A stretch of DNA of 64,000 nt from Sistotremastrum niveocremeum HHB9708 (Eukaryota > Basidiomycota > Agaricomycetes > Sistotremastrales > Sistotremastraceae): NCBI GenBank assembly GCA_001630475.1, contig KV419419.1, positions 1-64,000 of the forward strand. Direction: 5' to 3'. The notes beneath the pieces were generated by a model. That model was not told the origin of the DNA. It worked only from the letters and a program-made list of their open reading frames with translations, and made no database searches. The translations under genes were made by a program, and so were the position numbers. Of the stretch, positions 2,989 through 42,861 are shown one piece after another (position 1 is the first letter of the stretch; every line of letters begins with the position of its first letter).

Positions 2989-4793
2989 ATGACGCGTCTT
3001 TTCTCAGAGGAGCGGGTAGATAAACCGTCCGAGAACAGTAAAGCGAACGACGCAAAGTAAGTTACTGCTTCATGTTATACTACATGTCTAACCCTGATTT
3101 CTCGTGGATAGCAAACCGCACATAGACCTCCACACTTCCCAACTCAAGATCCGGCCAGTCAAGGGTCGCCGGGTTGACGATTCTGTGAGCCGCGAGAGAA
3201 AAGGCCCTCTTACTCGGTCTTCTCTCAAATCTCGACGAGATCTCAACTTCCAAATACCTTTCCTTCAAATGCCAGAAGAGCTCCTCCTGCAGATCATCCG
3301 GATTTTCGTGCGCGACTATCCTCCATGCTGGGATGTGCGGAATGCAAAAGGGCAGATTGATTGGTACCGATATACGAGTGGAAAACTTAACAACTTCCTT
3401 GTCATCACCCATATGTGAGTCGCTCTATCTTTGTCGCGCTGAGCGAAAAGCTTACACCTGGCACAGCTGTTCACTCTTGCGCCGGATCTGCCTTCGAGCG
3501 CCCCTATTATGGAACTACATAGATCTTCGGTGGCCACCGGCTGCGGTTGAAGAGTTCTCAAAGCGAGCTCAGAAGACCCCTCTCTCATTGGAGCTCGATA
3601 TCAGAGACTCACCCGGTTCATCTTCTCGGGATCGCTTTTTCGTTCAAGGCTCGACCTTCTGCATCCGATTCCTTCGCCAAAACTTGAAACGCGCTCGCGA
3701 TTTCGAGTTGAATGCTTGCATTGATGACTTGAACTACGATTTCGATGACTTCTGGAGACATGTCAGACGCGTGGAGGCCCCGAACCTCGAGAAGTTCTCC
3801 TTATATGTTCGGCCTGAAGCAGAGGATGAAAATGATCTTGCAAACCTTTTCTCTCGCAAAGCTCCTAAGCTGAGAGAACTCACCATCGATGGTGCCTGCT
3901 ATCACAAGTTCAATCCCGAGGGCTTTCAATCTCTCACCTCCCTTACCCTGCTTGGGTGCGATTTCAGTAGCCTCGGCGACGTCTCACGCCTCCCCCGCAT
4001 ACTCGCTCAGACACCCAAGCTCATCGAACTGGAGCTTCACGGAGACCCCTCCGAATATGACGCATACGTCTCCCCTCTCGCCAAGCCATTGGCAGAGCTT
4101 CGTGACTGCGTGAGCTTTGAAGTGGGTGGATTCTTTGCCGATCACACAGGATATCTCTTCTCTGCAGTATCTTTCCCATCATTGCGCAAGCTTCAAGCCT
4201 GGAGCTTGGCTCGCATTCATAATGATTGTTATGACACCAGTCCGTTCGTCTCACTTCCGCCTGCGTTGGGAGCACCATTCTCTACGAGTCGTCATCTGCA
4301 CTTTTCCCTCGAAGAGTCAGCAGTCGTGATTCCTTCAGAAGTAGAATTCGGGGATGCATGCGACATGGAACTATCCGAGACCCATGATGCGTCTTCGGTT
4401 GCGAATAGCATACGTTCCACCGAGTCCTTCATGCTCTCGCCTATGAAGATTCTCAACATTGTCCCTGAATCTCTGAGCATCTCCACTTACTCAGAGATCA
4501 GTGATGAAGTCTTCACAAAGGATCTTTGGAAGTCCGTTCTTTCCGAGTGTTCTCGCGTCACCGAAATTACCATTGAGGGCAAAGTTCCGATGACGAATCT
4601 CATTGCGGCATTGATGGATCCAGATTTAGTCTGTCCGTCTTTGGATATTCTGGATCTGCAGACTGAAGACAGTGTGGAAGAGTCAGAAGATTTCAAGGCA
4701 ATGCTCAGGTATCGAGAAGAACGCAACGCCAAAATTCAGACCAATATTGAGGAAGTCGATAGTGGATCCGATTCTGACGTGGAGACAGAGTAA
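2989..4793 (+). CDS. F-box/LRR-like protein, 565 aa
   Basis: Three exons (2989-3056, 3112-3414, 3467-4793) join in frame. The N-terminus 'MTRLFSEERVDKPSEN' is followed by the F-box core 'FLQMPEELLLQIIRIFV'. The second intron falls directly after 'VITH', in phase 2, a position shared by most F-box genes in this window. The long last exon has irregular leucine-rich repeats ('LRELTIDG', 'LTSLTLLGC', 'LIELELHGD') and an acidic tail ending 'SGSDSDVETE'. The likely role is substrate adaptor of an SCF ubiquitin ligase. Its closest relative here is the damaged minus-strand gene at 41024-42861, which shares the same N-terminus and repeats. It is followed on the same strand by a gene of unknown family whose intact paralog sits next to that same damaged F-box gene. 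Confidence 0.85.
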
Positions 4794-5269
4794 AGATCTT
4801 CACAAATTATAGGTCATCTTTCTCTTAATTTGATCATGTAATTTGAATAAATAGCCCAAGTAGATCTACCACTAATACAATTTTTAGAGTAGAGCGAGAT
4901 ACTTGAATTGCACATGAGCTGGGGCAGAGCGGAGTTTCAATCTTATTCGCCGTGTCCACCCGCGTAGTCTAAGATCCTAGACGTCGTCTTTGAACTCATC
5001 GCCTACGCGATAGCACGGGGAGCAAGGACATATTTTGAACATCACGGACCCTGATCATCTTCCTCTGCACCAGAATCACGCTATCTCCAAATCCTGAATA
5101 TTCGGATACCCAATCAATGACGTGGCAAAAAAACAAAGACAATTATAGAACTCACCGAACGATCAGTATGTTGAACGCAACACATAACGTAGCTGCTGTC
5201 AGTTATTCAAGCGTATTTTTCCGATTTGTTAGCTAATGCTTTGACTTTGTTCAGGGAGAAGACGTCGAA
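4794..5269. other. Intergenic spacer
   Basis: This separates the F-box gene from its co-oriented partner. A pyrimidine-rich acceptor ('ttgttcag') at about 5247-5254 suggests the next gene may have a 5' exon or leader in here. Nothing else was recognised. Confidence 0.4.
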
Positions 5270-6613
5270 ATGCCAAGCTCAGAACCGAACATCGACGCGT
5301 ACTTATCTATGCCCGTTCCATCTACATCACCAAAGAGCAGACCAGCTGATGAGGCTATGTTTCTACACCCCTTGCAGTTGGCCAAGAGTAAAAAAAAACA
5401 GCACTCCACTCGTGCAGCTGGCCCGCCATCCCGCTACGATGTTATATTCACCGCGGAGGATTGTTCGATGTGCAAGCATCGCCCAGGTTGCCACCACTTC
5501 CTTCAGCAGCGAACGGTTCCTCCAGGATGCGGCGAAACGCAAAATATATTAGGCAATCATGACCTGCTCGACGTGTACCTTGCGTCGTTGAACCCTCCAT
5601 CCTGGAAAGGGTTTGACTGGATTATCTCGAAGACGGGGTTTGAAAGCGTCGCAATCAGTGCATCTAGAGGACACTATGCCGTCAATACCGAAAGCAGGCG
5701 TGCCTTATGCCTTGCAATTTGCTATAACTGCGAGGCATCCAGGATATTCTCAGTTTACGTAAGCACTTTGTCATGTCGCACCCGCAGCTGATGGTTATGT
5801 TAACTGTATCCCGCAGGGGTATCAAAGTTATGGCATGCCGACTGTCCAAACGATCCTGGAGGAGTGCATCCACGCTCTTCGTAATGCATGGGACGACATG
5901 AAGCGATGCAATCTGGAGAACACTGACATCGATTCGGACCTGGCTTTCGTCGGAGCAATGTAAGCGAGCTGATAATATCTTCGGATTGGGGTTCTTACTT
6001 ACTGGATGAATCAGAATCTTCCTCGGCGTTCAGTACTTTCATCGGCCGCTGGAAGATCAGGCCGAATTCGTGCCGGTGCTGGCCATTGCCAACGATCTCC
6101 TTAGCCGGTGTGAGCTGCTACTGCAGCGGCTGAGCATGCAAGACAGTCCAATGCTTACTTCCCTGAAAAATGTTCAGTAAATCTTTTTCTGAGCTTGCGG
6201 GGAGACTTACCTCATTGTAGCAGTGGATATACCTCAAAGAAGCGATAGTAATACTGCAAGCTACGCTCGGCGTCCATTACGACATCACATTCGATTACGT
6301 TTACCGGAACGGCGCAAGACGTGCGTTGAGGGAGCTGCGATCAGCGCTCGACGATATCCGACGAGGATCGGACATTATTGCTCGAGGTCAAATCATGTTC
6401 CTGGCACGGAAAGCTGCGGCTCAGCTATATCTCTCAAGCGTGAGTCTTGACTCGTTAAACGTGTGACAGTATGTGAGACAGTATCTTCAGCTTGTGTGGA
6501 AGAGTTACTTTCGGGATGCATCCGAAGCTGAAAGAGAGATGCCGGAGTTGCAGCAGCAGCTAGACACATTGCTCTTCGCGGCAAACCTGAATCGAGGTGA
6601 CGTCATCTTCTAG
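5270..6613 (+). pseudogene. Damaged member of an uncharacterised cysteine-motif family
   Basis: Not a family I recognise. Exons at 5270-5758, 5817-5959, 6015-~6172, 6221-~6439 and ~6489-6613 align throughout with the intact minus-strand paralog at 39089-40443, with the same intron positions and an identical 143-nt second exon. Shared motifs are 'IFTAEDCSMC' followed by 'RPGCHHF', 'WKGFDWII', 'ATLGVHYDI' and 'DTLLFAANLNR'. Against the paralog, this copy has a TAA at 6178-6180 and one extra base a few positions later, so the exon no longer reads through; the final TAG at 6611 replaces a CAA of the paralog five codons before its own stop. A weak GT..AG intron (6173-6220) would skip the lesion in frame, so expression of a shortened protein (about 40 residues lost) is possible. 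Confidence 0.65.
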
Positions 6614-9600
6614 TTTGGCCGAGGTTGACATCGAGAGCATGAAAGAGAGGAAGACATAGGCCCTACGAAGGGTATAAGTTCTATCTAGCAGTCATGAGCT
6701 CGGGTTGCGGCTTCGAGGTTGATATGCAGTATGCTTACAAAATCGCTCCAATACATATATTACCGACTGCTCAATGCCATGCCCAGAATAAGAGAAGATT
6801 GGGGTCGGATGTGAAGAGACCGTGGACGCGATGATGTCTCTTCGTTCCGCGTTGTGCATTATGGGAAGACTTGGCGGCATAGTGAAACGGAGGTCAAGGA
6901 AAGTTTCGGACGCTGCTTCGTATCCGCACTTCGGGAGATTCAAGCGGCGAGACTGCAGGGCGACGATCCGATCGCAACGACGTACATGCGGCTCCGCGCT
7001 GCTGATCAAATTCGGGACGCTATAGTGCGCCGTGAGATTCACGTCCTATATCATTGAGTGCAACATACTGGATGCTGCGTTAGGTTGAGAATAGCTCCTT
7101 AGTTGAAGGATTAACATCGTTGTAAATAAAACGGGCTTCATGTTGCATCGTCGAAGAAACGCTGCATTCATTTCATTGGTAGCTGAGACGACAACTGAAT
7201 GCAGAACACGTACTAGTTTGATACAGGCATCGAACCTGTATGAACGATGAACGGGCCCACGTCGGGTTTCCTGACATCACATATCTGGGCTGTAGAGAAT
7301 TGGATCCGGAAGATGAAATGCGTTCATCCCAGGGTGCGAATGAGGTTGATGCAGCAAGAGATGCCCGACGCTGAAATCTCAGCGGCCGTGATTCTGCGTT
7401 GTACAGGTTATTAAGCTGATAGAGGATTAGAACGTTGTGTTGAGTTGGTTTCATGAATATGATGACAATGCCATCCATTATCTCTCTGACTGACGTGCTC
7501 TGAGCGGTAGCAGATTTCCGAGGTTCAGTCTCAGCCCAAGTGTATTAATGTTGTGGTCTGCAAAATCCGGAGTTGGTTCTCGGAATGCCTGACGATAAGG
7601 AAAGCACAAGATTATATGGCAGAATGGAGTGACGTGGCGAGCAGGAGATGTGAGCGACTTGAAAATGGAAGCGCTATTGGTAGTGCGGTCAAAGCGTTTC
7701 TGATGAGATCTGAATGCCAGTCTGCTTGTTAGATACTGAGATCAAGAGTACTGGTATATAGAACCCATTGGCTAAAGACATGGGGGTGGATGCAGTGTAG
7801 TCGCTGTAGTCGAAAAGCGGGTGAGCGCTCGGATCGCCCCGGCAAAGCTCTTTCTCGAACCTAGCTGAACAGTCTGAACCAGCGAGTAGACATGAGACGA
7901 AGGGGTAGATTCACCTCGACTTATCAAGCCTGAAGGCTTCTGTTTATTTTCAATGGCATGGCTGCCTCGACGGCACTGGCTGAAGAGCTCGAAGAAAAGT
8001 TTGCATGGTCGCAGCTGGACTTGACAGGTCGTAAGAGTGTTTCTCCATCGAATGCTCAGTATGTACGCATGAGTCTACATACACATTTAGTTCATTGACA
8101 GCGATCTATAAGGTTTGTAGATGAAAGGAGTGTCGCGGGCTAAATCTTCGAACGCAGCATCGTCAGTGATCTCAAACGGCAAGGGCATAACTCAGCTAGC
8201 TCACTTTCTATGTCAAGCTTTTCTACAGCATGCCATTTCAATAGCACTGGAAAATATCAGAGCATGTTATGTCGCCTCGGGATTCCACGACCGTCAACCA
8301 CGACTGATGCTCATGCATAATTCTCCTCAGGCAGTGCACACGAGATCTTAGCTAGATGCTTCCCGAAGTCCATGACAGCAATACCTTCGAATATCCCAAA
8401 AAGACCAGCGACGAAGTGAAATCATGGCGATTGTGAAACACTCCAGGAGGGCCGACGGCATTCTGGTAAGCAGTCCACTTTAGAGAGCCCATTTTCAATT
8501 ATTGCGTCAGAGGCCACGCGCTTATATTCATGGCAGGTCGAAGATTCTGTTCCCTTTCATCGGAGTCTCTGACGCTACCTCGTAGGGCGGTCCCTTGGAA
8601 CGGAATGTCCGAAGGTTCAGGTTTCCATTCGTATCGGAGAAAAATAGGCCCTTGAAACCGTCTGGATGTCGTTGGATATTGCAAGTCATAGGGAGAGATG
8701 GTCTTCAAGTGCTCGGTGTGTCGCGAGTCCTGCTTTTCTGCTGTCCGGAGGCTCAAGAATGCGTGAATGACCCTTGTCGAAAATCATTTACCCAGATATT
8801 GTTAGACTGACATTACTCTGTCACGTTGGCTAGCCGCATCGTCGGTATGCATGCGCGTGACATGCGCTGCTGTCGAGCCCTTGTCGCCGTCTTCGACAGT
8901 TCTGGCACGTTTTCTGAGCAACGTCATTTTTGCGACTTCAATCTCCGCCTCCTTGATCAACATGTGCGCAAACGAGTCTGACATCTGAAACTCTCTGTAT
9001 CTACTGTCAGAGCCGGCTCTAACGGATCTTTGAAGAGCTTTCAACTCTTTCTGCGCCGATGGCTTGCCCACATTCTCGCACTGATATTTCTATGGATCCC
9101 ATAACCTCTCCGTGGTTGTGCATCCAAAGCTTCGCGTTAAACGATGACCTCAATTTCTTCAAGCTTGCCCGAATCCTGAGCCATCATGCCCCGTCCTTGC
9201 CAAGTATCATCTCGCATTCGTCCTTGATCTGCCATTGTCCTGCTCCTTCAGGCTGTTCGCAATCCCAACTTGAACATCGGCATCAGCAATTGGGGAACGC
9301 CCGTGAAACCTTCGGCCTCTCTGAGCATCACAGAACATAATACTCTCTAAGTAACCTGATCGCGTCCTTGACGAGTCATTGGCTTTGTGGTGCTGACTAG
9401 AGGTCTGTTTTGCGAGAGCAGCCTTGTCAGTATATACTCCGAGAAATAATATACTCATGTTGCAAATTTGGCACCAATGTAACCACTTCAGCATCTGATA
9501 GTTATAAGCCCAAGGCTACGTGTAGCGGTGGCAAATCCGAGGACTGTAGAGGTACAAAATGAATGTTCCACTTCTCGCAACTTTGTCACGGTAACGCGTT

Positions 9601-17869: not shown

Positions 17870-20800
17870 TTAGTTTGCACCAAAGGAACAAGAACGACCC
17901 TTGTCAACGCCTCTACACCCTTCCAGCCTTCCACATTTTTGACATGGAGTTGTGCAAGGTTGGGGACATCGGAGAATGTCGCTGTTGCCTGGGCATGAAT
18001 CATTGTGACATCTTCGACAACTCCGAATATTCTGACGCTTGCGCTTCCCAGACGCCACAACCTCGCGACGTCGCTTCAATGTTTGGGGACCAGGGCCTGG
18101 GTTTTCCTGCACCTCGGTTTCATACGGGAGGTTCTGATCATTGGTCCTGAAGTGCAATACATTACATCCACCTTGTCATCAGACAAGAAAAATAACAACT
18201 TACTGAAGATCGAAAGCGTGAACATTGTTGTCAATCATAGCATCAGCACGATCAATCTGTACATTTTGACGGGGAGGACTCGCAGGAGGTCGAATTGGAA
18301 TTGGATGTGATATTGCAGGTAGATCAGATATAGAGGACCCAGCCAAGGAATTGAACGACTCTCGCACACCTTGTTGAGGCTGTGGCGCAGTTGGATGCCC
18401 CTGTAAAAAGACAGGGAATTGTGAGTTTTCTGCCTGAAATGCTGTCTGTGTCCGTGCTGTTGCCTTCAGCTCTGCTGCCATTATTTCCTGTGATGCTGCA
18501 ATGTTATTGCTTTTCCCCCAGGATTTACCATACCCAGCCAGAATCTCTGCCGTCACATAGAAACGATCGCTGCCATCTGCTGTGGTGTTCCAGTCTCGTG
18601 CAAACTGAAGATAGTTGACCTGATGATGCTGATCGTTTGCTGCATCTCGAACATAGTCTTGGATCTTTGAACGAAAGTATCGACGAGATGAATCACTGCA
18701 TAGAGGAAGGACAGGAAGGGCCAATCCTTGGCGGCGACGAAGCCAATCATTTGATTCCTTGAGTTTAAACTGCTCTGCGGCAGCAAACGAGAATGGCTGC
18801 ATGTTCAGACGGTTGCGAAGAGTCTCTATGGTCACATATTCATAAAATGCAGGATCGCAGAACAATGAATTGACAGACCTGGAAATGCACATATCCCAAA
18901 TGTTTCTGGACTAGTTTCATATAAATCTCCATTGCACCAATCTGAATACGATTGTGCTCCATCAATGAAATCAGAAAGATAGTTGAGCAGGAATGATGTG
19001 CGATTGATCAGACCAAGATTATGATGATATTCCCAGTCTGCATTATATATATGTTTGGCAAATGCCTGTCAAATATTGAGAAATGCAACAGACCATTTTA
19101 AGAATCCTTACCTGCAGATTGTACCATGTCCTGTGATCAGTCAGGCAATTGACAGCCAAACGTGGGCCTGCTATCAAAATCATAGAGATAAATTAACAGC
19201 AAAGAAGAAGATAGATTGACAAACTAACCATTCAATGCACCAAATTTACGATAAATATCACCATGTGGACCTCCTTCAACCTTATTTGTGCCTCTCGTAG
19301 AACGAAATTTTTGAAGACCATACTGATCCACACCTGCTTTTTCATACACCGGAAGTCCATCGATATCAGAGAGATAACCTTGGCGAGCTAATTCAACCAC
19401 AGCAGCAGCTTTTTCGTGTGCCACTTGATTGAACAGCGGGGCTCCTGTTTTTGCATCTTGGCTGTCAGCAAAATGATTGATGACATATTGCAAGGCTGGG
19501 ACCAAAACCGAAGGCGACGGAACAAAACGTGGGATGCGGGTGGTGATGAAACGAGGATATCGGATAAGCATTTGGTTGAAGGATAATTTGAACTTGTCCT
19601 GACAAAAGGTTTCAATCTGCTTCTTAATAACAGGATCCCAGCGCATCATATGGTCACGGAAGATCCGCAGAAATGTGGCACGGGTCCCATGGTTGATGGG
19701 CAATGGAATCATATGGAAAGCATGAAAGATATCTTTCTTGATCCGTGTATGTGTATCGTTTGGAGCATCCACAGCTGCAATGATTTTATCAACAGTGTCT
19801 GTGATCTCACTGTCAATAATTGGTGGAACATTATCTGGTGCTGGTGCTGAAAATTGAATTGAATAAGGTTTAACACGAGTCCAGGCAAAAAACAGGTACC
19901 CGCAGGTATACCTGGCAAGGTACCTGCTTACTAAGCAAGGGGCAAGTACCAAGTATCAACTTTTTGGAAAAAACACTGACAAAGCAGGTACTTGGACCAG
20001 GTACCTGCTGTTTTTAGTAGGGAAAACAGGCAGGTACCCAGGTATGAGTACCTGATTTTGGGGGTTTTTTGGAGGCAAGTATGAGCTCAGGCCCTGAAAA
20101 AAGCAGGGAGGTACCTGCCACAGGTACCCAGGTATGGCAAGTATGGACTCGTGTTAAACCTTAGAATTGAACAACAATTGTCGCAATAACAAACTACTAC
20201 ACACCTGTTGCAGTTGACTGATTTTCCAAAGAATCCATCTCATGCGGATCATCATCTGAATCATGTTCTGAGATTCCAGGCTGTTCGACACCTTTGTCTG
20301 AGTTATCATTATGAAGTGCATGATATGGGGCTTCAACAGATCCAATATCTTGAATGATTGGATCTGGACGAGTGTTGGTTTCATGGCCAACTCCCCTACT
20401 CTGACGATTCTGAATAAAGAGTATGAGCATTGCAATTATCAAACCAAATGTGAGCTTACAGTCATTCCATGATCTTGAATAAGTAGCGCAATTGGAACCA
20501 CAAGTGAAAAATTGGTGCCTCCAGATGCTCCTTGTATGTCTCCAAGTCTTTGGCAACCAGACTTTGTTTTCCGACTTCGAGTGGCCTGCGGAAGCAGGTA
20601 GAGAATGGCAGCAGCAGAAGGAATCATAAGCTCATCAATCTCTATGATGACTCGACTTTTTGTGGGAACCCGGACCCTGATCCCATCAAGAACTGCTGTC
20701 TGATTGGGCGAGATAAATCCATAAGCAGCAATTTCACCTCCAGCATGAGTCAAAAGTGCGACACGAGTATTTGCAGGGGTGGTCGCCTGAACGTGATGAT

Positions 20801-23733
20801 TTTGCGCAATCTCCTGCATTTTTTCAAAGATACGAAAAGATGCGCAGACATCTCGAACTGCATATTCCTCCAATTCGGTACGCAACTTCTGGTCTTCCCA
20901 TGCATCACATTGTCGGATGTTCTCGTCTTTAGGCAGATACGTCCCAAGGAGCTTCCGTGTCAGGCTATCAAGCGAACCTGATTCGGTAGTACCGAGTATG
21001 CCAAGTTCAATGGCGTACCGCTTGAGATCAATGCAACCAGCATGATTATCAAGACAGAGAGCAGGGAATTGGTTCTGCAGCCGAGTAAGATCACCTTTGA
21101 CAGAAGAACCAATCTTATAGAAGTTGCCAGAAATTAAAAGACGAAGCAGTGATGGAGGCAACTGTTTCAATTGGTGCACCTGAAAATAATTAATATAGTT
21201 TTTGGCAAATATCCAATGACTTACGTGGATTATGTAAACCACACTTGGACTTGAGTGGAACAATAATTGCAATATGGACACTCCAGTGGGGCGCGAGATA
21301 TTCCACTCTGCATCAAGACTCACACACAAAGGTGTGGCATTGTCAGATGCAGTTGATATCATTGAAGCCATGCATGCTTCAATCAGACCGGAATTGCGCA
21401 GATGAATCACTTCAATATCCTCGGGGGATTGAAATGGATCCAGACCGCTCAATGAGGGAACTAAGACTAAATCTGATGCCATCGATGGAAATGCAGAGTA
21501 TACCAGACGTTCATCCTGTTGGCACTTAATAGAGAACTTGTATAAGAGTATGTGGTGTTACCTTTTTAGGATCATCTGAGTAACATATCTGAGGGTCGCT
21601 AAACCCAAACCGATCAACTGTGTTTGCCAGTTCCATGAAAGGTCCTGATCGTTCTTCGTGCGACTTTGTCAAAGTAAGGACTTGACATCGTATGTAGCGT
21701 GAATCCATCAATGTCCATAATGCATTGAACACTGGTATGCCATCAATCTTTGCAATATGTTTGACAACCTGGAAAGTACAACTCATCAGAAGGATCCAAT
21801 CTAGTGTCATACCACATGACTTACTTTGAAGGAATCATCAATAGCCAGTTGATCAGGCGCCAAACACGATGTATGCTGATTTGCATCAGGCTCATCCCGC
21901 TCAATCGCTCGATTTAGCATGGCTGTCAAATATGTTTCACTTGGAACAAAGCCTGCATATCGATCTGGATCACCAAAATTGCCAAACTCAGGCGCTCGTG
22001 GGAACATGTAAGAGGCCGTCACTGTTGCTCCCTGGGGTTTGTGGGCTTCAAGAGCCCGCTCCATGAGGACTTCGAGATATTGATTGTGCAAGATATTGAA
22101 ACGGAGTGTGTGAAGCTCGAAGAGTAGTGACTGACATCCTGCAGGACCCATCTTGTGCTGATTCGCAACACGGAGATGGTTAATAACACGGTGCGATAAT
22201 CCACTTCGATGAGATAACATGGCTGGGAAGGCTAGTCGTATATGAGCAGGCAATGAAGCCAATAAACGCTGGCCCCATCCCGCAAAAGCTTTGCGACAAC
22301 CTCCCTGTGAGGTGCATCGATAGCGCCATGCCACGATGTAGAAGCAGTTTTCTAGATCCACGATGCGACGAGGACGAAGAGCGCCACACTTCTCAAGAGG
22401 TTTTTGGCAAGCCGGGCACTTTAGTTGAGCGTAAAAGTGAGGCAACCAGAGGAATATGGGTGGTCGGTAAAGCAGAGTGGGATCCATTTTCCCAGTGGCA
22501 AGGACAACCACCGGTTCAGGTGGATTAATCCAGAACGATGCGGGTACATTATGGGTGTTGGAAAATATGAGCGGAGTTGCATATTTACGATGATCGTCAA
22601 CTTCTTTTCGCATAATCATGCGGCTGATGGTGTCCGCAAAGTAATTGTACAGCCATTTTGGCATATATTTTGGCCGTTTGAACCAAGCTGGACAAATTTC
22701 AATAGGTTATAGTCATTACAGAGCCACCACGCATGCAACATACCTTTTCCAATTTCTTGCACAGCTTCAACCTGGCCGTCATCACCGATTTCATTCCCGG
22801 TGACGTCAACCGTGTCTTCGTTTTCGTCGTCGTCTTCGTCAATAGCATAGTCAACACTATGATTTGTAAAAAATGGCTCTGTCAACAGAACTTAAATGTT
22901 CAGTTGCAATATACCCAGATCATTTGCTTACTAGGCCGAGAAACAGCTACCGCGCGGGCCAGCTGCTGCCGGAGATCGTACACCTCGACGCGCTCTTCTG
23001 CCGTGGAGACGGACGCTTCGGTGGTATTGGTATTGGTTTGCATTTGAACTGGGGTAGGCTGATTTGATACCTGAGCCACCGGATTTGACAGTGCCAGTAA
23101 TTGGGGGTCAATCACGAGGCCTGCGGAAAGAATAAGTAAAGAAAACAAGAAATATGGGTTGACGGACCATGGGTATTGCTGCTGCTATTGTCAGCGGCAG
23201 GCGCATCAGGCCCATGCGTCGAGATTGTCACTAGAATCGAGGGTGCAGAGTCATTATCATAGGTGCTTCGAGAAAGGAATAAAAAAAGAAAACTCACCTT
23301 GGTCATCAAAACGAGATAATTCCGCCAATTCTTCATTACTCAACTGTTCACCTATGTTATAGTCGTCGTAGTCATCTGATAGGGGACCCGTGCTTGTACT
23401 TGGAACGAGTGCGATATCGAGTGTCGGTTGGAGAGAAGGGGATGCAGGGGGTTGCGCTGATGGTGGTGATGATGATGGTGATGCCGCGGCGATCTGGGAT
23501 TCTATAAACAGTTGTTAATATACTCATAACCCGATGGCTCAACGTTGCGTACCTTTCGCCTTTCCCTTTCCCTTCCCTTTCGAACCCTTCCCTTTGGACT
23601 TCGTCGGCTTCTCCTCCCCTGGTGCATTCGGCGGTCGACCTCGCTTCGGAGCTCCCGGTGGTCTGGGGCCATCCTGTTTTCCCTTCGGTCGGCCGCGAGT
23701 CTTCGGTTCTTTGTCTTCTGCGGGCGAGTCCAT
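17870..23733 (-). CDS. DUF6729 / 3'-5' exonuclease protein with split DDE-like core; transposon-type gene
   Basis: About 15 exons, all joinable in frame. Order from the N-terminus: AT-hook-like repeats ('RGRPKGKQ', 'KRGRPPNA') and a Lys-rich tract; acidic linker; DUF6729-type block (about 22710-21820) with zinc-ligand pairs 'CPACQ' and 'CTSQGGC'; a segment with 'IDDSFKVVKHI' and 'CYSDDPKK'; a DEDDy 3'-5' exonuclease (about 21480-20780) with 'SLDAEW' (Exo I), 'GSSVKGDLTRL' (Exo II) and 'YAVRDVCASF' (Exo III); a C-terminal block with 'RGTNKVEGG'; then a Cys-rich end 'CRRCHNDSCPG...CQKCGR'. The aspartates before and the 'N..E' motif after the exonuclease resemble the catalytic spacing of DDE transposases interrupted by a nuclease domain; this is inference. 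No terminal repeats were found, so mobility is unproven. The frame seems undamaged. A hAT-type MITE occupies one intron (19864-20163). Confidence 0.7.
19864..20163. mobile_element. 300-bp hAT-type MITE inside an intron
   Basis: Perfect 20-bp terminal inverted repeats (TAAGGTTTAACACGAGTCCA at 19864-19883 and its complement at 20144-20163) are flanked by an exact 8-bp target duplication GAATTGAA (19856-19863 and 20164-20171), the duplication size of hAT transposons. The interior is non-coding and crowded with GGTACCTG-like words on both strands. It sits between donor and acceptor of an intron of the DUF6729/exonuclease gene, lengthening that intron from about 60-70 nt to about 370 nt without touching the reading frame. 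A relative lies at 31135-31755. Confidence 0.92.
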
Positions 23734-26755: not shown

Positions 26756-27027
26756 TGTTAGTAAGCGAGGGCATCGGCCATAGCCGTCACGCCAGCCGGA
26801 GGGGATATTAGCCAGGCCCCACGGTCAGGCTCGGATCGGATCAGCGTATGTCGTAAGGCCCCCAGTCACCTCGTCCGACTACAGTAGTAGTCGGTCTTTA
26901 GTTAGTCGATGATTTGGATTCATCAATATATTGTTAGTAATAAAAATCGAATTAAATTGTATATAGCTAGCTGAAATGTAGTACGAATATACATCTTTAT
27001 ATCTACTCATTTACCTGCGCAACATCA
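26756..27027 (+). repeat. Left LTR of Copia element
   Basis: 272 bp, begins TGTTAG and ends CATCA. It matches the right LTR along its full length by eye. Confidence 0.95.
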
Positions 27028-27109
27028 GGTTATGAGCCCTGCTCAGCTATAATCTTCACAAAATCAATATTAATATTCATATTCCCACTCCTATCCTATC
27101 TCCGACATT

Positions 27110-30100
27110 ATGTCACTCGAGAACTCTACTTCGGGGATGTTCAAGATCCCGATCCTTACCGGGACCAATTGGATCCCGTTTAAGCGACGGATGACCGGAG
27201 TACTCAGGGAATTGAAGTTATACAAATATGTCGACGGCTCGGCAACGCTTATAGTCCCACTACATCCGACAGCTCTCACGGCGGCAGAGATCACCGAGAA
27301 CGAAGCATGGGAGGAGGGGAATGACAAAGCGATGAATAGGATCGTGTTATCGATCTCAGATGAGCAATCTATGCATGTGATGGATGCCGAGACGGCTAAA
27401 TCAATGTGGGATAAGCTACGTAATATTCACGAGCCGCACGGTCTATTGGGGATTCTAGCCGCGCGTCGGCGTTTGTATCGTACGATCGCTGACAACGGAT
27501 TTAATCTTAGAGATCATCTTGCCCAACTTAATCTGATCCGGATCTCACTCCATCAGATGGGCGATTCACTCTCCGATGTCGACTTTTCATTAATTCTATT
27601 ATCCTCGCTTCCCCCATCGTGGGAACCTTTCGTCCGATCGTTCCTTGGATCTCACACCGGCACGACCCTCTCCATTTCCTCCGACAATCTCATCCAGATT
27701 CTTATCGAAGAGTCTAATGATAAAGAGAATTCTCGGGCCGGAAAGCGGGTGAAGGAAGAAGTCGCGCTCGTTACTGGAGACCAGCGCGGGAAGAAAAGAA
27801 GCGGAGGAGATGGAAAAGGAAAGGGTTCGGAAGTGGAGTGTTATAATTGTGGGAAAAAGGGGCACAAGAAGCCCGATTGCTGGGCGTCTGGCGGAGGGAA
27901 AGAGGGTCAGGGTCCCAATCAGAAGGGGAAGGCTTCTCAAGCCAAAGACTCGGGTTCCGCTCTAGCCGAGATGGCTTACAGCGCAAATGACGATCAAGGG
28001 TCTCTAGGACCTCAGGATTGGATCATAGACTCAGCTGCGACGTCACACGTGGCTACGGATAAGGCTATGTTCTCTGAATATCGAACACTCGCTAATTCTA
28101 CTATGGGTGGATTAGGCGGTAGCCATCACAAGGTCCTCGGCGTCGGCACGGTCGTTCTAGACTGCCGAGTCGGGAATGCCGTTGCCAGGCACATCCTTCG
28201 TGACGTACTCCACGTGATCACCGATCACTGCCTTCTCTCGGTACCTCGCTTCGACGACTCCGGAGGTGAAACATCCTCTGCCGATGGCTTATTCAAGCTA
28301 TTAAGGACAGGAGGACTCGTGGGAATAGGGAAGAGAGTGGGAAGAATGTGGAAGCTTCAGGGGCAGGCGAAGATGCATGCCGCAGAGGAGGAACGAGCGA
28401 TGGTCGCAAAGCCAAAGATCTCGTGGGACGATTGGCACCGACGATTCGGCCACGTTCATTTCGGTGGCCTCGAAACCCTTCACCGGCAAAATCTCGTCGA
28501 CGGTCTAGACATTGACACCGGAACTACCCCAAATCGGGAATGTGGTGCCTGCATCGCGGCAAAACTTAGCCGCCGACCTTACCCGAAAGAAGCGAGTAAT
28601 CGATCGGAGATCTCAGGAGAACGGGTAGTAAGCGATGTATGGGGTCCGGCTAGGACGCAATCCATTTCCGGCACTACCTATTTCATCACATTCACCGACG
28701 ATGCTACCCGATACGTCACCCCTCTATTCATGAAATCGAAGGATCAGGCTCCGGAGAAGATCCGGGAGTTCTGCAACGTCGTTGAGAGACGATTTGGGAA
28801 GGCGCCGAGATTCCTCCGAGTGGATAACGGTGCCGAGCTAGTGGGAGGGAAGGTCCGAGATTATTGCCGCGAGAAGGGCATATCGATCGAGACCTCGGCT
28901 CCACACTCTCCTTCCCAGAACGGTATAGCCGAGCGCTTTAACCGAACGCTGGTCGAAATGGCTCGCGCGATGCTTATCGACGCTGAGCTACCTCCATTCC
29001 TATGGGCCGAAGCTATCTCACACGCTGCCTATATTCGCAATCGATGTCCTACTCGTGCCTTGAAAGGCAAAACTCCTACCGAAGCTTGGACTGGAGTTAA
29101 GCCGAATGTCAGTCATCTCCGGCCATTCGGCTCGGAAGTCTGGATTCTAGACGAGAAGGACCGATCGAAGCTCGCTCCGAAGGCGCTAAAGATGCGCTTC
29201 GTCGGCTTCGCGGAAGGAAATGGAGGGATCCGGTACTTTAACGCGGCTATCCGACAGATTGGCGTGACAAGGAACTTTGCCTGGACAGGCTCAGGGTCCG
29301 TTGTCATTCCTGGCTTAGCGACCGAGGGGGAGGATAGGGTTCAGGGGGAGTCAATTTCGATCGATCGCCAAGCTCAGGACCAAGCCGGTTCTCACGCGAC
29401 CGCCGAAGATCTTCCCGATACCCCTCCTACCATCGTTAGAGTCGTTCGCCCAGTCGAACCTCGCGAACCTCACCCTAGACGAGCCAAAGAAGGAGTTGAT
29501 TACCAACGCCTGCATGATCCCTGGGCAGCGGAGGGGCATCTCGACGCCGAAGCTGAGATAGCCTTGGTAGTCGGACGCGCCTTCATTACCGACGCTTCGG
29601 GATTGGAAGTCCCTGATACCGAGGATCAGGCTCGGAAGACTCCGGAGTGGCCGGAATGGCAGAAAGCGATCGGAGTGGAGCTACTTCAATTAGAAGAAAG
29701 AGAAGTGTGGGAAAAGGAAGACTTGCCGATAGGGGAAAAAGCGATCGGATGCAGATTCGTATTCTCACGGAAGTTTAATGCTAAGGGTGACATCATAGGA
29801 CACAAGGCTAGACTCGTCGTGCTCGGCTATGCACAGGAATACGGTCTACACTACAGCGAGACATTCTCTCCTGTCATCCGGATCGATACCCTGAAGACCC
29901 TCTTCGCTCTCGCTCAGCATTTCAAATGGAAAATGGTCCAGATGGATATTAAGGGTGCGTACCTTTACGGCACGCTAACCGAGAAGGTCTATCTCCGGCA
30001 GCCGAGGAACTTCTCCGATGGAACCATGAAAGTCCTTCGACTTCGACGCGCGCTTTACGGACTTAAGCAAGCCGGCCGCGAATGGAACAAGACCCTGCAT

Positions 30101-31252
30101 TCGGCCCTTACCAAACTCGGCTTCCATCGACTCCTCACCGACACCTGCACTTACGTCCGCGGGACCGGGACCGATATGATCGTATTGGGGATTTGGGTTG
30201 ACGATTTAGTTGGTATGGGAGGAGAGACAGCGGATTTAGAGGAGGTTAGGAAGGGCATAGAGGCAGAGTTCGAGACTAAGTTGCTCGGTGAGCCGAGTCT
30301 ATTGATCGGGATCGAGATCTCTAGACCGGCCGATGGATCTATGACGTTATCTCAGAAGAATTACATCAATACGATACTCCACCGCGTCGGACTCCAAGAT
30401 TGTAATCCCTCTCCCACGCCCATCGATCCTCATGTTAAACTCACTAAGAACCTCGGCACGGCAACGGACAAATTTCGGCTCGATTATCAGATCGCCCTCG
30501 GTTCGCTTAACTACGCTTCCAACACTACCCGTCCCGACATTACCTTCGCGTGTCAGACGCTCGCTCAATGGGCCGGAAACCCGTCCGAGGAGCACTGGAC
30601 CGCTTGCAAGCGGGTATTCCGTTATCTTGCTGGGACGCGAGACTACGGGATTACCTATGCTTCGAAAGGGGGAGAGTTGGAGATCGTGGGATATTCAGAT
30701 GCCGATTGGGGATCGTCCGACGAGAAGCGGAGATCGATCTCAGGGGTTGTTTTCACGCTAAACGGTGCCGTAATAGCTCATTCGGCTAAGAAGCAGGACG
30801 GAGTTGCCCTCTCTACCGCCGAAGCCGAATACGTCGCTGCTGCCTTAGCGGTTAAGCATGCGCTCTGGACTCAGCAATTTCTTGAGGAACTTGGTATCTC
30901 GGTAACGAAGCCATGGACCCTTCGTTGCGATAACAAAGCCGCGATCGACCTCACGCGCAACCCGGAACATCATACCCGAACGAAACACATCGATATCCGG
31001 TTCCACTTTATCCGGACCGAAATCGAACGTGGGAATATTGCTATCAAGCATATTCCGGGAATCGAGAATCCGGCTGATCTATTCACTAAGGGTCTACCTA
31101 AGCCGGCTCACATGGGATACCTAGTAAGGATGCCCACGAGTATAGCAAAAAAATTGGTACCCGTGGATGTACCTACCCAGGTACCTGTCTTTGTCAGCTT
31201 TTACAGGTACAGGTACACCACCTGCACAAAATTTCACAGGTACAGGTATTGA
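27110..31252 (+). CDS. Copia Gag-Pol polyprotein
   Basis: One frame carries, in order: a Gag-like capsid region (UBN2/Retrotran_gag type); a zinc knuckle 'CYNCGKKGHKKPDC' (27839-27880); the aspartic protease core 'IIDSAATSH' (about 28020); a GAG-pre-integrase segment 'WHRRFGHVHFGGL' (about 28432); the integrase core with 'VSDVWGPA', 'DNGAE' and 'SPSQNGIAERFNRTL'; reverse transcriptase (RVT_2) with 'MDIKGAYLYGTL' and 'WVDDLVG'; and RNase H with 'STAEAEYVA'. The protein copies the element's RNA into DNA and integrates it. The end of the frame runs into the nested hAT-type element. Confidence 0.93.
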   Translation: MSLENSTSGMFKIPILTGTNWIPFKRRMTGVLRELKLYKYVDGSATLIVPLHPTALTAAEITENEAWEEGNDKAMNRIVLSISDEQSMHVMDAETAKSMWDKLRNIHEPHGLLGILAARRRLYRTIADNGFNLRDHLAQLNLIRISLHQMGDSLSDVDFSLILLSSLPPSWEPFVRSFLGSHTGTTLSISSDNLIQILIEESNDKENSRAGKRVKEEVALVTGDQRGKKRSGGDGKGKGSEVECYNCGKKGHKKPDCWASGGGKEGQGPNQKGKASQAKDSGSALAEMAYSANDDQGSLGPQDWIIDSAATSHVATDKAMFSEYRTLANSTMGGLGGSHHKVLGVGTVVLDCRVGNAVARHILRDVLHVITDHCLLSVPRFDDSGGETSSADGLFKLLRTGGLVGIGKRVGRMWKLQGQAKMHAAEEERAMVAKPKISWDDWHRRFGHVHFGGLETLHRQNLVDGLDIDTGTTPNRECGACIAAKLSRRPYPKEASNRSEISGERVVSDVWGPARTQSISGTTYFITFTDDATRYVTPLFMKSKDQAPEKIREFCNVVERRFGKAPRFLRVDNGAELVGGKVRDYCREKGISIETSAPHSPSQNGIAERFNRTLVEMARAMLIDAELPPFLWAEAISHAAYIRNRCPTRALKGKTPTEAWTGVKPNVSHLRPFGSEVWILDEKDRSKLAPKALKMRFVGFAEGNGGIRYFNAAIRQIGVTRNFAWTGSGSVVIPGLATEGEDRVQGESISIDRQAQDQAGSHATAEDLPDTPPTIVRVVRPVEPREPHPRRAKEGVDYQRLHDPWAAEGHLDAEAEIALVVGRAFITDASGLEVPDTEDQARKTPEWPEWQKAIGVELLQLEEREVWEKEDLPIGEKAIGCRFVFSRKFNAKGDIIGHKARLVVLGYAQEYGLHYSETFSPVIRIDTLKTLFALAQHFKWKMVQMDIKGAYLYGTLTEKVYLRQPRNFSDGTMKVLRLRRALYGLKQAGREWNKTLHSALTKLGFHRLLTDTCTYVRGTGTDMIVLGIWVDDLVGMGGETADLEEVRKGIEAEFETKLLGEPSLLIGIEISRPADGSMTLSQKNYINTILHRVGLQDCNPSPTPIDPHVKLTKNLGTATDKFRLDYQIALGSLNYASNTTRPDITFACQTLAQWAGNPSEEHWTACKRVFRYLAGTRDYGITYASKGGELEIVGYSDADWGSSDEKRRSISGVVFTLNGAVIAHSAKKQDGVALSTAEAEYVAAALAVKHALWTQQFLEELGISVTKPWTLRCDNKAAIDLTRNPEHHTRTKHIDIRFHFIRTEIERGNIAIKHIPGIENPADLFTKGLPKPAHMGYLVRMPTSIAKKLVPVDVPTQVPVFVSFYRYRYTTCTKFHRYRY

Positions 31253-31755: not shown

Positions 31756-31796
31756 ATACCTAGCGACACTCCGCTTGGGTCCTGTCTAAGGGGGAG

Positions 31797-32068
31797 TGTT
31801 AGTAAGCGAGGGCATCGGCCATAGCCGTCACGCCAGCCGGAGGGGATATTAGCCAGGCCCCACGGTCAGGCTCGGATCGGATCAGCGTATGTCGTAAGGC
31901 CCCCAGTCACCTCGTCCGACTACAGTAGTAGTCGGTCTTTAGTTAGTCGATGATTTGGATTCATCAATATATTGTTAGTAATAAAAATCGAATTAAATTG
32001 TATATAGCTAGCTGAAATGTAGTACGAATATACATCTTTATATCTACTCATTTACCTGCGCAACATCA
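31797..32068 (+). repeat. Right LTR of Copia element
   Basis: 272 bp, begins TGTTAG and ends CATCA, directly followed by the second copy of the GCCCT target duplication. Confidence 0.95.
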
Positions 32069-32116
32069 GCCCTCACGCTCTCGAATTCAGTCATTCCATC
32101 CAGATGATCTATTAGA

Positions 32117-36140: not shown

Positions 36141-39088
36141 GCCATTGATGCAACCTCATGCGGCCGCCTAATATTCTTGCTCCAGTTCCGGACTTCACAC
36201 AAGTATTAATGTCTTGATCTAACACCCCGTGATATCCTAGTCGAGACCAAGGGTACCAATGTAGATGCATCTTGAATTCAAAAATATATCAGTATCGATA
36301 AATGCTCAGCTCGGGTTCATGAAGTATTGAGTGGTTGTGGCTAGAGCTGTGGCGTACAACTTTGGGCTCTCGTGAGGGCATGCTCGAGGCGACATCTTAA
36401 GCGATGTCGGATCGTCGGACACTTTCATTCGACTAGAAGGACAGTCTAGATCTCGTTAGGGGATTGCGGAGAGGCAGAAGACTCATTCCATGGCGAAGGA
36501 CAGTGAAAAGGTGGACTGGAGGGGTTGACGCGCGTTGTAATCAGTCTAGGCAATCATGTTCCCATGAAAACGCGGGTGGCGAATTGACCAAGTCATTTGT
36601 GAATCGCGTAGGCAGAAATCGTTTGGATTGGCGGTGCATGCCACCAGAGAGAAATCACGTTTCCAGATGCAGACGCGCTGAAGTGAGAAGCGGAGCCTGA
36701 AGCTTGACGCGTCGAGCCGCGAGAACATCCTGCCACAGAAAATCCTCCGGAAAAGCCGAACACGTTCACAAATCTTCACCAATGGCAAAGGAGGCTTTGA
36801 ACGGCTAACACGATAACTGGGAGACGAGCAAGGGACTCAAAGGAGGCTTCGTGTCCGGCGCCTGTGAATAATGTCATCTTGTGGACCGTCTAGAGGGGCA
36901 ATTCCAGAAACTCTAGCTGTCCGGGATATTTCATCGTTCCACCAATTTTCATTCCAAGGAAGACCGATGTGAAGCAACGAAGCAACGGAACCCGCATGAG
37001 CCTTTCTTTGCGATTGAGTGCGTAAGGATCCGCTTCCATCGTCGAGAATAGGCTGATGCCAGGTAAGAATGGTATTTGAACAGACAACGACACCAGCTGA
37101 TCGTGTAGCTCCTCTGAAACGGTTTACCCAGTAGTAAAGCCAGAGTCCGAGGTAGCTCGAAGACCGTATCGTCAACCTGGACCGGATGTTAATGCGTTTC
37201 GTTAACCTCGCGTTCCGAGGAGAGGAATTCTTGTGATAACTGCGTCCCTCAGAGGCGTCCTTCCAATCTCCTGGGCAATGCGGACGAAGACGAGCCCTTC
37301 CTGATGTGTAGGATACTGAGATACGAGAAGGTACTAACGTTCTTGTGTCCGTCAATCACAGACATGGAGAATCACTGCAGGTTATTGGGGTCGCCCAGCG
37401 ATATCTTGAATTGAATTTCCATCAGATGTTTTCCATCACATATTCATGGCAATAACTTCCCAATTTGTCTGGTTTCTGTCGTGAGTCATCTAGGTCCTTT
37501 CCTGTCAATCGACTAGGCACTCACTCACGCTATATCCATAGCTACACCCAATGAGCAGGTCCTGGTCGCTTTCATGGCATCGCACGACATCAACATTGAA
37601 AGCACAGCTCATGCTGGCGCACTTGAGTGCGTAGGAGGCAGTCCTGAGCATTGAAAAATTCGGCCATCGCAGCCGAGAAACTTTAGCTCTGTTTGATATC
37701 CTTGTTCGTGTTCGCCAGCTAGCTTAAAGGAAAGACTCTGGTACGGAAGCTCAAGAATATCAGAGGCTCATACATTGCCGTCAAGTGTCGCGCTGCTGGT
37801 GGTCGAATCCTAGCTTGGTCCAGCGAAGTCGCAGCGACAGAGAGCGAGCCCGCGCTCCGACTCTTCTTCCGCTTTGAGACGTACTTGCGTCGAGCCTACA
37901 CTCTGCGCTATTCCCTGCCTTCGCACTGAAGACACATATTCCGACTCGTGAAGAGCATATTTCAGTGTCCAGCCTCCGACTTTCTGTCCACGTCAACGCG
38001 GTACCTTCGTTCACTATCAGTAGCACTCCTATGCTAGAGCTGGTCGTGTCGTTTCTCGCCACGTCACCCCCTTAAACGACAGGATCTATCTACATCTACT
38101 GTCAAAAGTCTTAGGAAATGCATAGCCAAAAGTCACTCGAATAGGAACCAGCAAGCGATCTCGCCCGACCGCTGCGACAAGACCTTTGATGCAGCGCAGA
38201 CTACCCTGAGGCCTGCATGACCTTAGATTGAGATTGAGCGCAACGAACGGTATGACCATTCTATAACTACCCTATCCCAGATCTTCTGATGGCCTCGATC
38301 AGCCTATCGCTCAATTGAGCACACCGGATTGTCAAAGAGTTGGCGACCCTGGACTGACTCAGCAATAACCACCTCTTTCATCCCTCCAATCCATGACACC
38401 ATCTTCATCATCTATCATTGCCCTGGATGCTCCGGATCCCATGTGCTCTGATTAAAGCCTTCGATTATAAGGAAATAAATACGTGCAAGGGAGATGAGTC
38501 CGGTAGAAATGCGTTAGCACCATAAGGTACGCAAAGATTAGTGCAAGTTATGTGTACAGAATGGTACCGACATTCATTGCAGTCGCTATTTATTGTGTGC
38601 CCCTGATGCCCTCCCCGCTTCTCCGACGCGTTTTCTTTGACCCATGAGCCATTGGAAGAGATCACATTGTCCAGGATCTCTCGGTTTTGTTGCAGTTTTG
38701 AAAGCGGTTCGATGAGATGGCCCCGTGGTGCTCATGGCTTCTTTGAGAGGACTGCTCAGCGCCGATCTCATCATCCCATATGCCCAGTATGTTGCCGCCG
38801 CGTAAACTCCATCACGACATCGGGCTTATTCCTGGCACCTCTTCCAGCTTTATTTCCTGTATTTCCATTCTATGCACCGTCGCTGCAGCCATTTCCCTTT
38901 CAATCCTCCACATCGTCTTTACACCTCCACTCCTGAGAGAGCAATTGAACTTGAGCATGTGTGCAGGTCTAGTTTTGTTAGTATCTTCTGGATCTCGCCT
39001 CCAGCAGTTTTGTTTGACATAATGTTTATTAGAGATACACGATCATCCTCATAATCCCGTCCTCCCAGCTATGCGTAGATTTTCCATA
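36141..39088. other. Gene-poor region, nothing recognised
   Basis: 2.9 kb without a gene I can support. Open frames around 36837-37355 (minus) overlap one another in different frames and lack splice-consistent continuation or known motifs. No terminal repeats or tRNAs were found. Confidence 0.4.
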
Positions 39089-40443
39089 TCAACGGGCACC
39101 GAATTGGAAGATGACGTCATCCCGATTGAGCTTTGCCGCGAAGAGCAACGTGTCCAGTTGCCTCACCAACTCAGATAATTCACTTTCAGCTTCCGTTGCA
39201 TCACGAAGACGACCTTTCCATACGATCTGCAGATAATCAGCGGGTTGTGACATGGTTCGACGACTCAGGGCTTACTGTTGACAGATAAAGCCGAGCCGCG
39301 GCTCTCCTCGCTAAAAACATAATTTCACCCCCAGTAATAAGGCTTGATCCGGTTTGAAGATCTAACAATGCTGCTTGCAGCTTATTCAATGCCCATCTTA
39401 CGCCGTCGCGGTATACGTAATCGAAACAGATGTCGTAATGAACTCCAAGCGTAGCTTGCAGTATCAACACCGCTTCCATGAGGTATGGCATATGCTGAAG
39501 TGAGGTAAGTCTCCAAACAAACTCAGAAAAGATGTACTCAACGATGCGCAGGGAAGTAGGCAATTGACTGCCTTCCTTTACCATCTCCAACCGTATCTTA
39601 TCATACCGATTGAGGAGATCGTTGGCGATCGCCAGAACGGGTACGTATTCCGCCTGATCTTCGACCGGTCGATGAAAATTTTGAACGCCCAGAAATATTC
39701 TGCGATAATTCGTATGCGGAAGGATATTACGATTACGACTAGCTCACATTGCTCCCACAAAAGCCAGGTCCGACTCGATGTCGCCAATCTCCAGACCTCG
39801 TCGTTTCATCTCTGCCCAAGCCTTGCGTAGGCCATCTAGGCATTCTTGAAGAATGCATTTGACGGATAACAGCTCATAGCTCTGAGCGCCCTTGGAATCG
39901 AATTAATCGTGAGCCAGCAGTCTTGCATGGCCAAGGATGATGGCTTACGTAATAGGAGAAATTAGCGAATGCTTCGCAGTTGTAACGAATCGCCATGCAT
40001 ACGGCGTGCTGGCTTTCGTTATAGTTAACGTCGCGCTCCTGGGAGACCCGAATTAGCAGATTCTCGAATCCTGCTTTCGGAATGATCCAGTCGAATCCCT
40101 TCCAAAATGGCTGTTTCAAAGATGTCAGGTATAAGTCGAACAGGTTGCGATCTCCTGATCTATCTTGTGTACGACTTCTTTCTTGGATCTCCATTTGATG
40201 CAGAGGGAAATGAAAGCATGCTGGGCGATATCGGCACATGGAACAATCTCTTGCGGAGAATATCGTTCCATATCGCCATGGCGTATCCGCCAGGCTAGAG
40301 TGTTGTCTTCTTTGCTCCGTTGTAACAGACTGCGACGAGTGTGCGAAGACATCTCGGTTAGCCTGGGCTGGTACGACATATGTTGGTACGAGTGGTAGGG
40401 GTGTCGTCGGCGACCTATGACTACCCCATTTGTAGGTTGACAT
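39089..40443 (-). CDS. Uncharacterised protein, intact member of the cysteine-motif family, 399 aa
   Basis: Family not recognised. Four exons (40443-39949, 39890-39748, 39699-39276, 39226-39089) join in frame. The N-terminal 60 residues are poorly conserved against the paralog at 5270-6613. The conserved part starts at 'IFSARDCSMCRYRPACFHF', three cysteines and a histidine that could bind metal, then 'FWKGFDWIIPKAGFENL', a mostly helical middle ('ILQECLDGLRKAWAEMKRR'), 'ATLGVHYDICFDYVYRDG', 'IMFLARRAAARLYLS' and the end 'LDTLLFAAKLNRDDVIFQF'. There is no signal peptide or membrane segment. It lies immediately downstream of, and co-oriented with, an F-box gene, as its paralog does. An additional 5' exon upstream cannot be excluded. 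Confidence 0.75.
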
Positions 40444-41023
40444 TTCAACGTCCGCAGCCTTCGCAGGTAAAGTTAAGGGTGACGGCACACAGAGCAGGCT
40501 TATGAATGCTCACGTAAGGGTGCTGTATTGCTGTCGACACCGTCGATGTCGTTGTGTGAGTGGTTTCCTCACGCCACGTCATCAATTGAGTCGGTGAATA
40601 CTGCAGTCTTGGGATTCTGTCTGTGCCACGTTGTTGGAAAGCGTAAAAGCCTTGCGCTGTGAGGATAAGCTCACCTGGTTCGTGGTCTTGCCTGTCAAGT
40701 CCATCCTGCATGGACGACATCAAAGGATACATAGTCCGCTTAGCGAAGTCGAACAATAGATGCAATACAAACTCCGCTCGAGTTCACTTTCTACAACTTT
40801 CTACATGTCAACACCAAAGCAACGCGGAGAAGTCATATTCTAGACCTGATCATTATTCCCTGCATTCACGAGTCCTTGAGCGGTGCTTGCAAGCACGTCA
40901 ATCGATCAAGCCCCATCATTGCCTACATTAGTGACGAACGAGTTAGACATTTGAACTGCGTATGTGTAGACACTATACGAGTATTAGGTGGTTATGATTC
41001 CATTGATACAGACATAATAAAGG
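40444..41023. other. Intergenic spacer
   Basis: Between the damaged F-box gene and its co-oriented partner. It may hold a 5' leader exon of the partner (the sequence upstream of its ATG ends in a possible acceptor). Nothing else was recognised. Confidence 0.4.
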
Positions 41024-42861
41024 TTACACTACATTCCTGCATTGTTCAGCGAAACGCTTCACTCTTGAAAATTCTATGTACGCGACGAGTGCGCTAATAG
41101 ATAACGGTCTCGATTTTGGCATCGCGCTTCTCTCGATACGCCAGCATCGCTTCAATGCTTTCGTATGCACCCTACTTTTGGTCTCCAAGATCAAAGTCTT
41201 CAAGAATGGGCACACTAAGTCTGGATCGCGCAAGGCCGCGATTAATTTGGGTGTCGGAACTGTACCTCTGATCGATATCTCAGTAACGTGAGGTGTCTCC
41301 AAAAGGATCGCTTTCCAAAAATCCTGGGTATAAAGCGATTCCTCAAGTCGGTCCCCACTCGAAAAGGCCAGCGATTCCGGTGCAAGGTTGAGTACCTGCA
41401 TGGGCGCAACGATGAAAGACCTGAGGGCCCTGCCAACGTCACTGAGATGCTCCATGTGGTAGTGACTCTCAGAGAATTCCAGAGTGTAAAGGTCTTCAAC
41501 CTCCGAGTAAAGCACCACCCCTTCGTCTTCTAAGCTGAAGGTCAGAGTTTCTGACTTAGAGAACGGCACTTTCACTGCTGGTGGCAAGCAGGAGAAGGCG
41601 CTTGTAGTGTCAACGTCATCGATGACCCTAGCCTGAGCCCAGATTTCCAGTACTTGGACGATTGGGAGCGATATGGCAGAAAGAAGATACGCTGTTTGAT
41701 CTGCCGAGAACCCTGAGAGACCGCAATTGATGCACTCTCGTAGCTCTGCGATCGGTTGGGTGACGACTGGAAGGTATGGCCATGTCGCTGAGACATCACC
41801 ACCGATACTCAGCTCGACGAGTCTCGGGGTTTGCGCAAGGATGGAAGGGAAACGGGTAATCTGTTCGGCATCGGCCACATAACACGTGTCCAATGCTAGC
41901 GAGACCAGGGAATGAAAGGAGCCTGGGTTGAGAGCTTGGTGTGAAGCGCCTTCCGTGGATATGTCTCTCAACTTTGGAGCGTCACCAGAGAACAAGTCAC
42001 GAAGAGTGTCCTCATCCATTGATTTAGGCCGAATGATTAGTTGGAAGATTCCAACTAATCGGCGCGTTCAAATTTCTTATAGATGCCCACAAGCCTGTGA
42101 AGTCAAACTCTTCGGGCATGAAGCATGTCCTCACATCAAAGTGTTGGATCCGATGAAAATTCTTGCGAAGAAAATTGATCCAATAGTCCATACTTTCCTC
42201 AAAGAAATGGACTGGGAAATGTGACATCTGTTTGCCGACCACGTGAAGGTCAACTGATAGAGGGGCGCTATGCGATCGTATTTCAAACTCATTGACTGCC
42301 TCAGATGGCCACAGAAGATTGATGTAACTCCATAACAAGGAGGAACGAAGGCCGATCCGACGCAAAAGCTTACAGCTGGATGAAGGTCGTCACTATGAAG
42401 CAAGCGTACATCATGAAAATCGAAGTACAAACATTTGGGTGACGAGAAGGTGCTTTCTCAAACTCCTCATCATGATCACATACATATCGAACTCTTTACT
42501 ATCGTCCGATTCGTCTCGCACGAAAGTCAGAAAAATCTCCAGGATAATTTCTTCGGGTATCCGGAGAAGAGCCGATTGATAGTCGTTCCTTTGAACAGAA
42601 GTATCACAGGAGTTGGGGGATCTGTGATCGTCTTCCAGGATGCCCGGATGGTGGGGATGGTCATTGGCAGGATGGCCTTCAGGGTGCTCAGTAATTCGTC
42701 GCTGTGCGGCAGCCAATTTATCCTCGCTGTACATACAGTTAGAATCTATGTTATTATACGAAGGGAGTCCGGGCTCACTGTTCCTTACTCTTTTCACCGG
42801 ATGTAGTGGTGATGGTTCCAGACGACTTATCGACGCGTTGCTGAGAGGAACGACGCGTCAT
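41024..42861 (-). pseudogene. Frameshifted F-box/LRR-like gene
   Basis: Exons 42861-42789, 42745-42433 and 42375-41024 carry the same plan as the intact paralog at 2989-4793: start 'MTRRSSQQRVDKSSG', F-box 'LLRIPEEIILEIFLTFV', intron after 'LVTQ', then 'LLRRIGLRSSLLWSYINLLW'. In the last exon the frame is lost near 42035-42065: upstream it reads '...IRNLNAPISW', while the conserved continuation 'IFQLIIRPKSMDEDTL' is in another frame. A second shift lies near 41150, where the paralog-like end 'AMLAYREKRDAKI' is again out of frame (its stop would be at 41094). Two frameshifts make this a probable pseudogene. The first sits exactly on a 26-bp perfect palindrome. Confidence 0.8.
42035..42060. repeat. 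Perfect 12-bp inverted repeat with 2-bp loop
   Basis: GATTAGTTGGAA, two bases, then its exact complement TTCCAACTAATC. It lies inside the last exon of the damaged F-box gene at the point where the frame is lost. Confidence 0.95.

Follow-up and report, generated by a model that had tools for sequence, protein, structure and literature searches.

The question raised by this locus is whether a pair of neighbouring genes found twice in inverted orientation, one F-box-like and the other of unknown family, represents two genes that work together, or whether a single duplication of neighbours is enough to explain the arrangement. The preliminary description had proposed the first and had added that the two copies decayed reciprocally. 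The window, i.e., the whole stretch of 64 kb that was analyzed, is the first part of contig C26 (468,435 bases) in a genome of 34.7 Mb and 111 contigs, which resembles that of a basidiomycete in its gene structure and content. The features on which the answer rests are the following:

2989..4793, plus strand: FB1, intact F-box-like/LRR-type gene, 565 aa, exons 2989-3056, 3112-3414 and 3467-4793 (gene model, family tree).
5270..6613, plus strand: PA, partner gene of unknown family, 376 aa, exons 5270-5758, 5817-5959, 6015-6171, 6221-6439 and 6491-6613; intact if intron 3 is spliced.
6172..6220, plus strand: intron 3 of PA, 49 nt, GTTCAG...TAG, containing the stops and the shift first taken for damage.
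39089..40443, minus strand: PB, second copy of the partner gene, 383 aa, intact, exons 40443-39949, 39890-39748, 39699-39543, 39494-39276 and 39226-39089.
39495..39542, minus strand: intron 3 of PB, 48 nt, GTTGAG...CAG, in frame and stop-free.
41024..42861, minus strand: FB2, second F-box-like/LRR-type copy, sister of FB1, broken by two frame changes, exons 42861-42779, 42726-42433 and 42375-41024.
42035..42060, minus strand: perfect inverted repeat with 12-base arms and a 2-base loop, where the first frame change of FB2 occurs.

All four genes, the two of F-box type and the two partners, were found where, and on the strands on which, the preliminary description had placed them, and FB1 and PA (block 1) were shown to be paralogous to FB2 and PB (block 2), in the same order and inverted. 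The shared start MTR..S..RVDK.S and the shared ILAQTP and DPDLVCP stretches of FB1 and FB2 were all recovered, and the gene models agreed with the common intron positions and 143-nt exon 2 reported for the partners. PA and PB were identical at 196 of 363 residues (54%) in a gap-free alignment (blastp E 1e-137), and exons 2, 3, and 4 were of equal length (489/143/157/219/123 nt in PA and 495/143/157/219/138 nt in PB). FB1 matched the two pieces of FB2 with blastp E-values of 6e-35 (79/239 residues identical) and 1e-83 (130/288). Homology and order of both pairs thus support a duplicated, inverted two-gene block. The spacer and the 400 bases upstream and 300 bases downstream of the blocks aligned no better than shuffled sequences, so the detectable duplicated unit consists of the two genes only, about 3.7 kb, and the edges of the blocks are invisible. 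Within the window, no further gene pair common to the flanks of both blocks was found apart from F-box family members and the partner.

Sister status of FB1 and FB2, which the preliminary description had named as a point at which its reading could fail, was obtained with 100/99 support in a tree built from 28 rows of exon-3 sequence, in which FB2 was entered as two pieces joined by X. The duplication is old. Between PA and PB, dN was 0.33–0.36 compared to a dS of 0.99–1.26, and the NG86 dS values (1.26 for PA/PB, 2.26 and 3.13 for the F-box pieces) were near saturation. The F-box pair was shown to evolve faster than the partner pair, since NG86 dN was 0.53 for the combined F-box pieces and 0.33 for PA/PB. 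Differences at fourfold sites (47/92 for PA/PB; 65/104 for the pooled F-box pieces, i.e., 18/35 and 47/69) did not differ significantly (Fisher p 0.11). These figures are compatible with, but do not prove, a common date for the two splits, although the saturated dS values taken at face value differ between the pairs.

We consider it probable, at about 0.85, that one old inverted segmental duplication inside a growing F-box-like/LRR gene array made both blocks, that FB2 lost its frame later, and that the partner is a carried neighbour. PA and PB would have stayed functional proteins, moved along with the F-box gene beside them, and no functional tie between the two kinds of gene would be required. 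The locus is an ordinary case of an old segmental duplication followed by the loss of one gene. The array around it is interesting but of a known kind, and the locus offers an inside view of array growth through the inverted duplication of blocks that carry passenger genes.

FB1 reads through three exons to 565 aa without a stop, as had been claimed, and the two frameshifts ascribed to FB2 were also found: the reading leaves the first frame near 42,050 and returns to it near 41,170. The first break coincides with the perfect inverted repeat listed above; a scan of the window for repeats with arms of at least 11 bases and loops of up to 6 bases gave only one besides this repeat, an AT-rich 11-base repeat at 466. 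Perfect inverted repeats are a known kind of mutation spot, and the first break perhaps arose from a template switch there. The end branches in the family tree were 0.58 for FB1 and 0.64 for FB2; FB2 thus lacks the accelerated divergence expected of an old pseudogene, and it may have been constrained until a recent loss of frame. The nearly equal branches would also be expected if FB2 were unbroken, with both blocks fully intact and the frame changes being assembly errors. The breaks could be sequence errors, but the position of the first at a perfect inverted repeat and the presence of two separate breaks make this explanation improbable. Three candidate GT-AG introns that would bypass the first break were also considered; the best of them had a poor acceptor and would remove a near-invariant LFSxxAPxL stretch of the family, and none was accepted.

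The assignment of FB1 to the F-box family comes from its relatives. No F-box family in Pfam matched FB1, the N-terminal piece of which gave nothing at E up to 10; its sole Pfam match was PF24758, which covers the LRR part in a family of F-box proteins, with an E-value of 0.052 and 13.6 bits compared to a cut-off of 27. A piece of FB2 matched PF12937 (F-box-like) at E 0.57. Ten N-terminal pieces chosen from the 28 tree rows were scanned against Pfam, and four of them (L031, L032, L036, and L034), all in a separate five-row clade, exceeded the cut-off for PF12937. Within the 20-row clade of FB1 (support 83/86), L014, L011, L019, and L020 matched the same family below its cut-off (E 0.0015 to 3.6e-5). 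A profile of 20 exon-3 sequences matched LRR structures at the level of sequence (LGR4 best, E 2.2e-5; TIR1, E 0.0087), which concerns the part following the F-box. In addition, a phase-2 intron was located just ahead of an (I/V)CSxWR stretch in 27/27 modelled members, in a search centred there with the phase left free, and likewise in FB2. These results suggest that FB1 is an F-box/LRR adaptor by descent in which the F-box has diverged. F-box/LRR proteins act as adaptors of SCF ubiquitin ligases, the F-box binding SKP1 and the LRR part binding the target, and by analogy FB1 would be a putative SCF substrate adaptor. Members of the family resemble FBXL-type and TIR1-like adaptors in having an F-box region of the LPxE...C(S)xWR...LW type followed by a part that matches LRR profiles, whereas the F-box of FB1 itself lies below Pfam detection and its binding of SKP1 is only putative. 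A search of plasmids with the FB1 DNA gave no match.

A search of the genome with FB1 gave at least 79 matches with E-values of 1 or less, among which some genes are represented by several pieces. Seventeen family genes were present in C26:1–220,000, including six whole genes in the window and a seventh that crosses its end. Mushroom-forming fungi have many F-box genes, often expanded, and the present locus is similar to them in that many F-box-type genes occur in tandem and in duplicated blocks. Ubiquitination genes in orthogroups specific to complex multicellularity are reported to include F-box proteins (PMC8893723), in passages that mention neither this locus nor a partner gene. Among open-licence papers, nothing recognisable as this locus or as such a gene pair was found, which says little about print overall.

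A second inverted block was detected in the array, in which L027 and L016 (128 and 132 kb of C26) correspond to L017 and L025 (210 and 214 kb). Its neighbour is an O-FucT-like gene (L016:2-1051, minus strand; PF10250 at E 8.5e-6 and 26 bits, below the curated cut-off of 31.5), which showed 80.7% nucleotide identity over 753 bases between the L016 and L017 sides. This block duplication looks younger. Besides, a stretch of 450–580 bases with 82–90% identity was present downstream of three F-box members (L016:3140-3703, L033:316-763, and L019:546-1115); its copies resemble each other more closely than do the F-box genes L016 and L019, and it is probably a repeat element.

These data bear on the proposal that the linkage of the F-box gene and its partner reflects joint function, the partner being a co-factor or target of the F-box/LRR ligase, linked in both copies for that purpose, with FB1 now serving both PA and PB in trans. 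Order and orientation have been kept in both copies despite a divergence that nearly saturates silent sites, and both partners are conserved, as this proposal would have it. The two linkages nevertheless count as one event, because both descend from one duplication. In this F-box-dense region, duplication of an array block can carry whatever adjoins, as the different neighbour of the second block illustrates, and one retained neighbour is thus no sign of joint function. That PB persists beside the broken FB2 speaks against the need for a cis-linked pair. No partner-like frame was found in the flanks examined of 26 other F-box members (936 to 1500 bases downstream of the stop codon, with a median of 1338; weaker members were left out). 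Linkage as a sign of joint function was not supported, and a functional module is considered quite unlikely.

Searches of the whole genome with PB and with PA as single proteins found only the two partner loci, and the best match of a two-sequence partner HMM outside the blocks, among frames of at least 25 aa from the F-box member loci and the window, had an E-value of 0.57. Pfam gave L71 as the best match of PA (E 0.32, under the cut-off) and no match for PB. One PDB chain matched PB at E 0.63, and a profile built from both partner sequences found none with an E-value of 10 or below; viral contigs searched with PB gave no match either. AlphaFold2 models of partner pieces were unusable (mean pLDDT 42 and 51). 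A C-x2-C-x5-C-x-H pattern conserved near the N-terminus of the partners may bind metal. The partners form an orphan protein family, constrained since the old duplication and worth characterising.

The reciprocal decay described previously required PA to be damaged and PB to be intact. The second part was confirmed, as PB reads 383 aa over five exons, and the first was not: the stops and the length change in PA are located in a 49-nt GT-AG segment, and removal of this segment gives a stop-free frame of 376 aa. Given splicing of this intron, the PA frame is open, and one of the four genes (FB2) is broken rather than two in mirror image. The corresponding segment of PB, being in frame and stop-free, can be taken for coding sequence. 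Splicing of intron 3, through which PA would be intact, has an atypical donor: position +5 is A in both copies (GTTCAG and GTTGAG), compared to G in 10/10 other modelled donors of the four genes.

Intron 3 was the most conserved of the four partner introns (58/55/49/51 nt in PA and 58/48/48/49 nt in PB), with 39/49 positions identical (80%) compared to 55–67% in the other three (Fisher p 0.026 for the comparison with the other three combined, selected post hoc and without correction). The differences at codon positions 1, 2, and 3 were 5, 1, and 3 (each of 16), and the exon rates were 0.29, 0.27, and 0.48; the pattern of change in intron 3 is not that of coding sequence. RNA folding gave z-scores of −1.89 for PA and 1.41 for PB and no shared hairpin. 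The conservation may reflect constraint acting on an intron that is weakly spliced, a small patch of gene conversion, or chance.

The same observations bear on the suggestion that PA is a pseudogene and that the segment was exonic in the ancestor and is still exonic in PB. The open frame of the PB segment, its identity to PA above that of the other introns, and the donor lacking G at +5 would be in agreement with this. In PA, on the other hand, the stops and the single-base change in length are confined to the 49 nt, with none in the 1131 modelled coding bases save for a stop five residues earlier than that of PB; intron 3 lacks the third-position excess seen in the exons, and the PA frame is open and conserved on either side of it. 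This explanation is very unlikely, and the claim of mirror-image decay was removed, since the damage on which it was based is most likely an intron that had been misread.

In both partners, intron 3 differs from the other introns in its conservation and weak donor and is a possible retained or regulated intron. A more elaborate proposal is that a regulated, weakly spliced intron 3 was preserved in its nucleotide sequence through a duplication old enough for silent sites to be almost saturated and switches between two products per copy, with FB1 and the partner as a dedicated pair and FB1 serving both PA and PB. We regard this as highly doubtful. If true, retention would add a 16-residue insertion to PB and truncate PA. 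PB intron 3 is similar to exitrons and retained introns in being a multiple of three in length, stop-free, and conserved, with a weak donor; retention of PA intron 3, in contrast, would terminate the protein.

Two further features were observed between the blocks. A 3′–5′ exonuclease-domain frame adjoins a DUF6729 frame at 20439–22706 (minus strand), and the two are possibly parts of one gene or mobile element. A Copia-type LTR retrotransposon (27074–31252, plus strand) contains an open frame of 1392 aa, and its direct repeats (26756–27028 and 31797–32069; 273 bases) showed 100% identity, which indicates that the element is young.
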